From Prochlorococcus sp. AG-402-B05 (lineage in GTDB: Bacteria > Cyanobacteriota > Cyanobacteriia > PCC-6307 > Cyanobiaceae): a DNA stretch of 64,000 bases. The notes beneath the pieces are model-generated. The model was not told the DNA's origin. It did no database searches and saw only the letters and a program-made list of their open reading frames with translations. Position numbers and translations under genes: made by a program. Of this stretch, positions 56,778 to 62,095 are shown piece after piece; the stretch's first letter is position 1, and every line of letters starts with the position of its first letter. The DNA is taken from contig QCHK01000008.1 of the NCBI GenBank assembly GCA_003279635.1, positions 1-64,000 on the forward strand, given 5' to 3'.

Positions 56778-57335
56778 ATGATTACACCATTAGAAAAAAA
56801 CTATAAAGGACTTATATCAATTACAGGACCGATAAGAAGTGGAAAAAGTCAATTGGCAGAATTTTTAATCAAGAAACAACAATCCGTCACTTATATAGCA
56901 ACATCAAAACCAAGACCAAATGATCCAGATTGGCAACAAAGGATTGACCTCCACAGGAAGAGAAGACCTGATCGATGGAAGTTAATTGAGCATCCTAAGG
57001 ATATCTGCAAAGCAATTGAATCGATCAGTGAAAATGGATCAATATTAATAGATTCAATAGGTGGCTTAGTAGAGCATCACCTAGGAGATGACGATACTCA
57101 ATGGGAAATATTCCAAGATAAATTACTTAATTGTTTTACAGATGATAATTTGCTAATTGTTTTTGTTTCAGAGGAGGTTGGTTGGGGAATTGTTCCTGCA
57201 ACACCAATAGGCCATTTATTTCGTGAACGTCATAGCGCGTTAACCTCATTGCTTAGCTGTCGTTCAAAAAAAAGGTTGCTTGCTATCAATGGGATTGCAA
57301 TTGATTTAGATCAAATTGGCGACCCCATACCATGA
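56778..57335 (+). CDS. cobU: Adenosylcobinamide kinase / guanylyltransferase
   Basis: P-loop GPIRSGKSQLAEFL, YIATSKPRPNDPDWQQRIDLHRKRRPDRWKLIEHP. Confidence 0.85.
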   Translation: MITPLEKNYKGLISITGPIRSGKSQLAEFLIKKQQSVTYIATSKPRPNDPDWQQRIDLHRKRRPDRWKLIEHPKDICKAIESISENGSILIDSIGGLVEHHLGDDDTQWEIFQDKLLNCFTDDNLLIVFVSEEVGWGIVPATPIGHLFRERHSALTSLLSCRSKKRLLAINGIAIDLDQIGDPIP

Positions 57336-57832
57336 ATTCATTAAATCGTACAAGACCTCGTGTCGCATTATTTGAACCAAGAATTCCACAGAATACTGGA
57401 ACAATTGGTAGAACATGCTTAGCCTTTAATATGTCATTAGATATTATTAAGCCCACTGGATTTAGCTTCGAAGATAAATATTTAAAAAGAGCAGGTTTAG
57501 ATTATTGGCCTCACGTAGATGTACATTTATATGAATCGTTTGAACAATATAAAAATTCATTTAAAAACTCAAGAATTATAGCTCTTACAAAAAAAAGTAA
57601 TAATTTAATTTCAAATATTATTTATAAAGATACAGATATACTATTATTTGGACGAGAGGATACAGGTTTGCCCGAAAGCATAATTAATAAGTGTGAAATT
57701 GTCGCAGGAATACCTATGCCAGGAGGTGAGAATCAATTAAAGACAGGAGGAGTTAGAAGTTTGAACTTATCAGTTGCCAGTGGGATCGTTTGTTATTCTG
57801 CATGTTTACAATTAAACTTATTAAGCAAGTAG
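57332..57832 (+). CDS. trmL: tRNA (cytidine(34)-2'-O)-methyltransferase (SPOUT)
   Basis: ALFEPRIPQNTGTIGRTCLAFNMSLDIIKP...LLFGREDTGLPE...GGVRSLNLSVASGIVCY; 4-nt overlap with cobU. Confidence 0.94.
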   Translation: MNSLNRTRPRVALFEPRIPQNTGTIGRTCLAFNMSLDIIKPTGFSFEDKYLKRAGLDYWPHVDVHLYESFEQYKNSFKNSRIIALTKKSNNLISNIIYKDTDILLFGREDTGLPESIINKCEIVAGIPMPGGENQLKTGGVRSLNLSVASGIVCYSACLQLNLLSK

Positions 57833-57839
57833 AAAGTCA

Positions 57840-58025
57840 TTATCCAAGATAATTACAATATAAAACGCCATCATTTATTACATTATCATCATCAACCTCT
57901 AACCATTCTTTGTATTCATCATACAGAGCTTCCCTGTTTTCACCATTCAAATTATTCAATCGTTTAAGTGATGCGTTTAGCATTACTTCTACTGCGTTTA
58001 AAGCTCCAGATTGCCTAGCAGACAT
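57840..58025 (-). CDS. Small hypothetical protein, paralog of the 58269 ORF
   Basis: 61 aa; shares E-V-x2-N-x2-LKR-x3-L-x-G-x4-AL-x2-E-x-KEW with the divergent neighbour. Confidence 0.7.
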   Translation of the reverse strand: MSARQSGALNAVEVMLNASLKRLNNLNGENREALYDEYKEWLEVDDDNVINDGVLYCNYLG

Positions 58026-58268
58026 AGAATAATCAAGATTTAATTTAAATTTTACATCATGTAATACTTTTTTTCAGTTTCATTTATTACAGAATTCAGA
58101 ATTTGACTATTTTACGTAAAAAAATTTCTAAATAATTGAACAAATTTTGATTAATGTATTTGTATACATATAATGAGATTCATTTCATAGAGGTTTTAAC
58201 TTATACGGGATTTACTAATTAACAGATCCTAGTAGAGATTATAAAATAAATTTAACTGATTAATTCAG

Positions 58269-58448
58269 ATGTCAAATACAAACATTCTAGGAAGCTGTGA
58301 AGTTACAATTAACTCTGCACTTAAGAGAATTTCTAAACTAGAAGGTAAAGACAAACAAGCTCTAAAGAGTGAATTTAAAGAATGGATAAATGCAATTGAT
58401 AGTATTGAAAAAAACTATGATGTTCTTTACATAAATAGAATCATTTGA
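58269..58448 (+). CDS. Small hypothetical protein, paralog of the 57840 ORF
   Basis: Not in the ORF track (59 aa). MSNTNILGSCEVTINSALKRISKLEGKDKQALKSEFKEWINAIDSIEKNYDVLYINRII; 14 of 31 ungapped identities to the divergent ORF. Confidence 0.75.
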   Translation: MSNTNILGSCEVTINSALKRISKLEGKDKQALKSEFKEWINAIDSIEKNYDVLYINRII

Positions 58449-58452
58449 TCAT

Positions 58453-58659
58453 TTATGCACGAGGATGTAAATCTGGATATCTACTTCTTTCGTCTTTTAT
58501 TCTATTTGGATTTTCACGATCTGCACTTCTGGCAGCGTTAAAAATAACTAAATAAGGTATGAATATTGCGAAGAAGTAAAAATGCAAAAGGACTAAATCC
58601 CATGGAACTCCTGTATTTCCATAATCTGGAAAAAACAAAGCGGTAGCTAATGGGAGCAT
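58453..58659 (-). CDS. Small membrane protein, unknown function
   Basis: 68 aa; TM segment DLVLLHFYFFAIFIPYLVIFNAA with charged C-terminus RSADRENPNRIKDERSRYPDLHPRA. Confidence 0.7.
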   Translation of the reverse strand: MLPLATALFFPDYGNTGVPWDLVLLHFYFFAIFIPYLVIFNAARSADRENPNRIKDERSRYPDLHPRA

Positions 58660-58986: not shown

Positions 58987-59202
58987 ATGAAGTACATAAC
59001 AGAGACCATAAAGAATATAAAGAACCTTTTACCATATTTATTGTTAATAGCTATATATTTCCTTTTTGTTAATCTTGAGGCAGGGAAGGATACAAAAACT
59101 AACAGAACAAACGAGAATGATTCTATGTTGATAGAGGAAAGATCAACTGAACAATATAAACAACAAAGAATAAAAATCCCAGTTTTTCCATATAAACAAT
59201 AA
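58987..59202 (+). CDS. Small single-TM hypothetical protein
   Basis: 71 aa; TM LLPYLLLIAIYFLFVNLEA followed by a hydrophilic tail. Confidence 0.55.
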   Translation: MKYITETIKNIKNLLPYLLLIAIYFLFVNLEAGKDTKTNRTNENDSMLIEERSTEQYKQQRIKIPVFPYKQ

Positions 59203-61293: not shown

Positions 61294-61449
61294 TTAGCTT
61301 TTTTTTGTCTTTTCTATAACTTTTTGTAGTTCAGCTCTTGAGAGAGTCGCTTCAATTTGAGCCAAAACTTGCTGGAGTTCATCAGTCTTATTCAAAGAGG
61401 TCTCAGCCATAGATCTAAGCTTTTGAAGTTCTTTAGATGCAGTTTTCAT
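61294..61449 (-). CDS. 51-aa helical sORF (copy 1)
   Basis: MKTASKELQKLRSMAETSLNKTDELQQVLAQIEATLSRAELQKVIEKTKKS*; paralogous to 61937-62095. Confidence 0.6.
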   Translation of the reverse strand: MKTASKELQKLRSMAETSLNKTDELQQVLAQIEATLSRAELQKVIEKTKKS

Positions 61450-61701
61450 AGATACCATGAAAAGATTGAATTTCCCTAGAGAATTTGCAGATAATTTGCT
61501 GAAAATGAATAGAGAGAATACACGAATAAATTTGCCCTATATTTTTTTGATGTCAATAGATATGATTATCATCTGTTGATAAATCATTAGTTAAATTAGT
61601 TTTTCTATTGAGATTTTATATTTATATCCCTATTAACTTGTATTCAATATTGAAGAAGGTTTATTGCTTATGAGTTAGATTTATTTAAACACAAAAAAAG
61701 A

Positions 61702-61936: not shown

Positions 61937-62095
61937 CTACCGTCTTTTGAGGGACTTCTCAGCCACCTTTTGAATTTCCTTTCTTGAGAGGTTTGCCTCC
62001 AGTCTTGCTAACTCTTGTTGTAGTTGAGCAGTCTTAATCATTGACCCCTAAGGTTTTGAGATGAGTTTGTGGATTTCTCCTGATGAATTCACCAT
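61937..62095 (-). pseudogene. Helical sORF copy 2, interrupted by in-frame TAG at codon 16 (possible internal restart at ATG 62041)
   Basis: MVNSSGEIHKLISKP*GSMIKTAQLQQELARLEANLSRKEIQKVAEKSLKRR* aligns ungapped to copy 1; TAG sits where copy 1 has Glu. Confidence 0.65.

Follow-up and report, generated by a model that had tools for sequence, protein, structure and literature searches.

Two small genes lie head to head near the end of a stretch of 64,000 nucleotides from Prochlorococcus sp. AG-402-B05 (hereafter the window), which is part of a 72.8-kb contig of a picocyanobacterial genome of 1.76 Mb, presumably of low-light clade I. Gene A (57840–58025, minus strand) encodes a predicted helical-hairpin protein of 61 aa with a pI of 4.2, and gene B (58269–58448, plus strand) encodes a paralog of 59 aa with a pI of 7.8; their start sides are separated by a spacer of 243 bp (58026–58268). 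A conserved anchor gene for a trmL-like SpoU methylase (57332–57832, plus strand) adjoins A. On the other side, gene D (58453–58659, minus strand) is inserted as one block with A and B (A|B|D) and encodes a 68-aa protein with a hydrophobic stretch, which is outside the family of A and B and has no Pfam match.

Both open reading frames are present at the coordinates and on the strands reported by the first-pass annotation, and the 31-residue stretches that it aligned agree at exactly 14 positions. Extended to the whole proteins, the local alignment covers about 50 residues and scores 109, while 5,000 shuffles of B scored 24 on average and never above 49, so that the similarity is not due to chance. 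The annotation also described the plus copy as missing from the track of open reading frames; B is present in a mechanical list of such frames, and its 59 aa, just below a 60-aa cut-off, may explain the reported absence. The reading of the two genes as divergent paralogs of an uncharacterised family holds, given their homology, their common family, the conservation of their frames in related genomes and the purifying selection acting on them.

A family of small helical proteins

A and B are members of an unnamed family of helical-hairpin proteins of about 60 aa, which is specific to marine picocyanobacteria and has expanded in this Prochlorococcus clade. A profile of 44 sequences (E<=0.001) recognises 13 copies in the source genome, and the family profile matches A and B, in their own genome, with E values of 8.4e-26 and 2.2e-27, respectively, both being within the set used to build it; single-sequence searches link A and B independently and recover further copies besides them. 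The two proteins are therefore placed in the same family and not in unrelated ones. Profile matches were found in 313 of 400 Cyanobiaceae genomes and, in a sampling of the whole class, in 32 of 291 genomes, all of them Cyanobiaceae and none elsewhere in the class. In the remaining genomes of the genus that are fairly complete, the number of copies is 5–14; it is mostly 3–5 in several other small-genome genera and 1–2 in most of the larger-genome ones. The named relatives of gene A among GTDB contigs are all from Prochlorococcus single-cell genomes. No Pfam, NCBIfam or PADLOC model covers the family, scans with these having given nothing above noise, and no literature was found on it or on its phage genes. 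A match of B to DUF7212 (E 0.0065, under the cut-off, in only 1 of the 44 members) was discarded.

Some family copies have recurrent features or neighbors. A sub-family of the type MNAD..LK.ILHMAV.NAVSRM...DRRC.F.EYKEWLG (L166:2989-3126, L145, L152, L153, L155, L162, L173, L177-L179) appears to be conserved in numerous picocyanobacterial genera and could represent the ancestral core member. In the source genome, three proteins of about 220 aa (L065:4284-4958, L165:3-674, L168:1372-2022), which are homologous to one another (27–35% identity, E down to 4e-32) and have no significant Pfam match, are each encoded at most about 1.6 kb away from a family copy and are possibly island or replication genes. 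Furthermore, a serine resolvase gene (L169:2351-2986) abuts the family copy at 2160-2354.

From a structural perspective, the family members (median length 61 aa) are mostly acidic, with a median pI of 4.9, and share the motif R..L..L.G.D..AL..EYKEWI followed by VLYIN, in which E and W (E35 and W39 in B), located in the EYKEW helix, are invariant and R and E (R20 and E38) nearly so. AlphaFold models of the monomers show two helices with a mean pLDDT of 73 for A and 84 for B, the latter with a deeper alignment, so that a helical hairpin is predicted for both; comparison with solved structures, by sequence and by fold, gave no significant match. This prediction bears on the proposal that A and B are small DNA-binding regulators similar to ribbon-helix-helix proteins, or antitoxins, autoregulating through the spacer sites. 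The pattern VEVTLN...LxRL...GxDR.AL..EYKEWL superficially resembles that of a ribbon-helix-helix protein, and conserved operator-like sites are located upstream of both genes. However, that fold starts with a beta strand followed by two helices, whereas AlphaFold assigns a helix to the N-terminal segment; moreover, most members are acidic, there is no toxin partner, and scans gave neither an HTH or ribbon-helix-helix Pfam match nor a defence model match above noise. We consider the proposal distinctly improbable.

Homologs of the family are also encoded by T4-like cyanophages, as established by profile-profile comparison. Alignment of the host and phage profiles by hhalign gave 97.6% (E 3e-12), with an enlarged set of sequences and a host profile free of phage rows, the best of 30 column-shuffled controls reaching 3.3%; a comparison with fewer sequences gave 96.3%. 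No direct match was obtained by tblastn of host proteins (B- or C-type) against phages; the phage genes were reached by a scan for the conserved pattern, which led to two viral contigs and from these to PSSM2_220 of P-SSM2, SSM2_174 of S-SM2 (C-terminal part), S-SRM01 and others. The phage gene is located a little downstream of nrdB in S-SM2 and in the two viral contigs and near an NAD synthetase gene in P-SSM2 and S-SRM01, and the P-SSM2 form is encoded on 22 IMG/VR contigs. Close A- or C-type copies were not found on viral contigs. The phage relatives correspond to phrog_23981, a cyanophage group of unannotated function, whose model gives weak matches with 17 of the 44 host members at E<=0.1 (best 3.1e-5), A having an E of 0.11 and B not being listed. 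Host and phage proteins share a domain of about 55–65 aa, the E-F/Y-K-E-W motif and a C-terminal ILSLE/VLYIN segment; the phage forms differ in a longer or variable turn and, in some cases, in an N-terminal extension.

Locus history, selection and origin of the pair

The gene order cobU-trmL-A(-)|B(+), followed in most cases by D(-), is found in 30 Prochlorococcus genomes. All 30 have an intact A, whereas an intact B is present in 21; in the other nine, B is broken or lost: it carries a frameshift or a stop in three (G022, G024, G004) and has no open reading frame in six, among which blastn detected remnants in G015 and perhaps in G009 and G012. Gene D is present in most genomes with A|B, missing in G013 and degraded in some (e.g., L019, L032). 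In G013, the orthologue of window positions 58987–59202 directly follows trmL without A, B or D in between, and neither A nor B lies beside trmL in other genera; A|B|D is thus one block, which was either gained in the clade or lost in G013. Two genomes of the genus, G027 (97% complete) and G028 (90%), show no match to trmL, the anchor gene at this locus, which may reflect either a gap in the assembly or a true loss. Farther along the window, two small similar genes of the LQQVLAQIEATLSR..-type (61294–61458 and 61937–62041, minus strand, 54 and 34 aa) have duplicated counterparts near trmL in G013 (L105).

The median dN/dS (Nei-Gojobori, pairs with dS between 0.1 and 1.5) is 0.12 for A (30 sequences) and 0.18 for B (21 sequences); dS is high and these values are therefore rough, yet they show purifying selection on both genes. 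Selection has to be weighed against the view that A|B|D was left behind as cargo by a mobile element or a phage and has little function in the cell. Such a view would account for the direct junction of trmL and the next gene in G013, and it agrees with the neighborhood of other copies, which includes a serine resolvase or island genes that recur, with the phage relatives and with the repeated decay of B. On the other hand, the retention of A wherever the locus occurs, its dN/dS of about 0.12 and the invariance of the promoter sites amid scrambled DNA speak against it, and a non-exhaustive look at the locus found no integrase or repeats. We regard the cargo explanation as quite unlikely.

The first-pass annotation had proposed that the pair originated by inverted local duplication. 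In a tree of 94 rows, B joins the C18-type copies, which are distant from this locus, with a support of 99/87, and A falls outside. In a tree of 69 rows, B and C again grouped together in the best topology (95/33), and forcing A and B into one clade cost 4.1 log units, with a p-AU of 0.388. These sequences are short, which limits the resolution of the trees. With B nearer to a distant copy and a p-AU that does not reject A+B, the trees leave a local inverted duplication possible but not favoured.

Two promoters in the spacer

The mean pairwise identity of the spacer is 0.50, but it rises to about 0.9 in two blocks. On the side of A, an upstream site GTAATAAATGAAAC (GTA-N8-AAC; 58077–58090, minus strand), whose GTA and AAC are unchanged in 30/30 genomes, precedes by 22 nt, in 28 of the 30, a -10 box TAN3T (58049–58054, minus strand) with nearly invariant T, A and final T. 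The full pattern is GTA-N8-AAC-N22-TAN3T, and the site is predicted to be centred at about -41.5, counting from an inferred start about 7 nt past the -10 box. On the side of B, the element TACGG-NN-TTTACTAATT (58204–58220, plus strand) is near-invariant in 24 genomes and is followed by a -10 box TAN3T (58242–58247, plus strand), the distance being 21 nt in all 22 genomes in which B is intact or only frameshifted (TACGG-NN-TTTACTAATT-N21-TAN3T). The -10 box of B is gone in G024 and G004, the older two of the three clear pseudogenes. Of the six genomes without a B frame, five have lost the B element or no longer show it in recognisable form, and G009 keeps it with three changes; all six have retained the A site.

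Shared regulatory DNA and co-regulation, also suggested by the first-pass annotation, do not fit this arrangement. The two conserved blocks are unlike each other, and the stretch of about 110 bp that separates them is not conserved, which points to two separate promoters and not to one shared control region; moreover, B and its element have been lost repeatedly, while A and its own element stay. Taken as a whole, the idea of twins born by local inverted duplication and co-regulated or subfunctionalised under one control region agrees with the head-to-head order, the homology and the p-AU of the A+B clade, but it has against it both the best trees and the independent loss of B, and we judge it unlikely. 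Regulatory divergence of A and B is a better reading than shared control, and the description of a family pair with two promoters is held with high confidence.

Searches for either element with 0–1 mismatches in five genomes matched only this locus, and no A-type promoter was found at the other family copies of the source genome; given that neither element recurs, no regulon is drawn. An Rfam scan of the locus gave no match. A DNA motif common to both elements was sought by eye only, without a match, and a reading of the B element as an HLR1 site for RpaB, likewise by eye, was set aside with a half-site spacing of 9 instead of 10.

Promoters of class II activated by NtcA carry GTAN8TAC, with a GTN10AC core, at -41.5, together with a TAN3T box (PMC3898017). 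The gene A site has in common with them the GTA half-site, the GTN10AC core, the position, the N22 distance and the -10 box, while it differs at position 12, which is A and not T in all genomes, so that the strict GTAN8TAC is absent, and in an N8 that is more conserved than NtcA alone would require. An activator other than NtcA, with A outside nitrogen regulation, would explain both the constant T-to-A change and the nearly invariant centre, but against it stand a position and a spacing that equal those of the NtcA class exactly (PMC3898017). A relaxed match of this kind turns up at a rate of about 0.036 per 200 bp of one strand in the window, and a stricter one at 0.005. The case for such an activator appears evenly balanced. 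Judging from the promoter sequence, control of gene A by NtcA is putative and somewhat doubtful.

Proposed function and comparison with known small proteins

The explanation that we put forward, to which we give slightly less than an even chance, is that A and B are paralogs of an adaptor family under independent control, with A perhaps regulated by nitrogen. Each protein would be soluble and would act as a small adaptor or inhibitor, a role that we propose tentatively, with the conserved R..L / E-Y-K-E-W face as the surface that contacts its partner. The paralogs would differ mainly in the timing of their production: A would be switched on from its class II activator promoter, possibly by NtcA or by another CRP-type activator under nitrogen stress, and B from its different element, being dispensable in several lineages. 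A broader scenario seems rather unlikely. In it, a lineage-specific family of small helical adaptors would have been amplified in low-light Prochlorococcus, with each member placed under a different stress regulator (in one case NtcA, through nitrogen control), and the version encoded by T4-like cyanophages would serve during infection to redirect the target that the host proteins act on.

Prochlorococcus has a streamlined genome and very few regulators. In such a genome, 13 copies belong to one unannotated family of small proteins that viruses encode as well. The paralog pair, with two promoters marked by conserved footprints, offers a concrete entry point with testable sites and a natural contrast between a gene that is kept and one that decays. 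Furthermore, the definition of the family allows existing transcriptomes and phage-infection data to be re-read.

Among known small proteins, the adaptors of the NblA type (PF04485) are cyanobacterial helical hairpins present in multiple copies, with homologs in cyanophages. In its possible way of working, the host family is comparable to NblA in size, predicted helical hairpin, multiple cyanobacterial copies and cyanophage homologs; it differs from it in that no PF04485 match was found in the 44 members at E<=1 and no NblA appeared in the fold search. The setting differs as well, since these cells largely lack phycobilisomes. A second comparison is with PSHCP, a hyper-conserved picocyanobacterial protein of 62 aa with a pI of 11.3, a helix and four strands, and near-100% identity (PMC4215834). 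The family of A and B is like PSHCP (PMC4215834) in its length, its restriction to picocyanobacteria and the lack of an assigned function; in contrast, where PSHCP is basic, hyper-conserved and encoded in a single copy, A and B (pI 4.2 and 7.8) are all-helical members of a divergent family with 13 copies in one genome.
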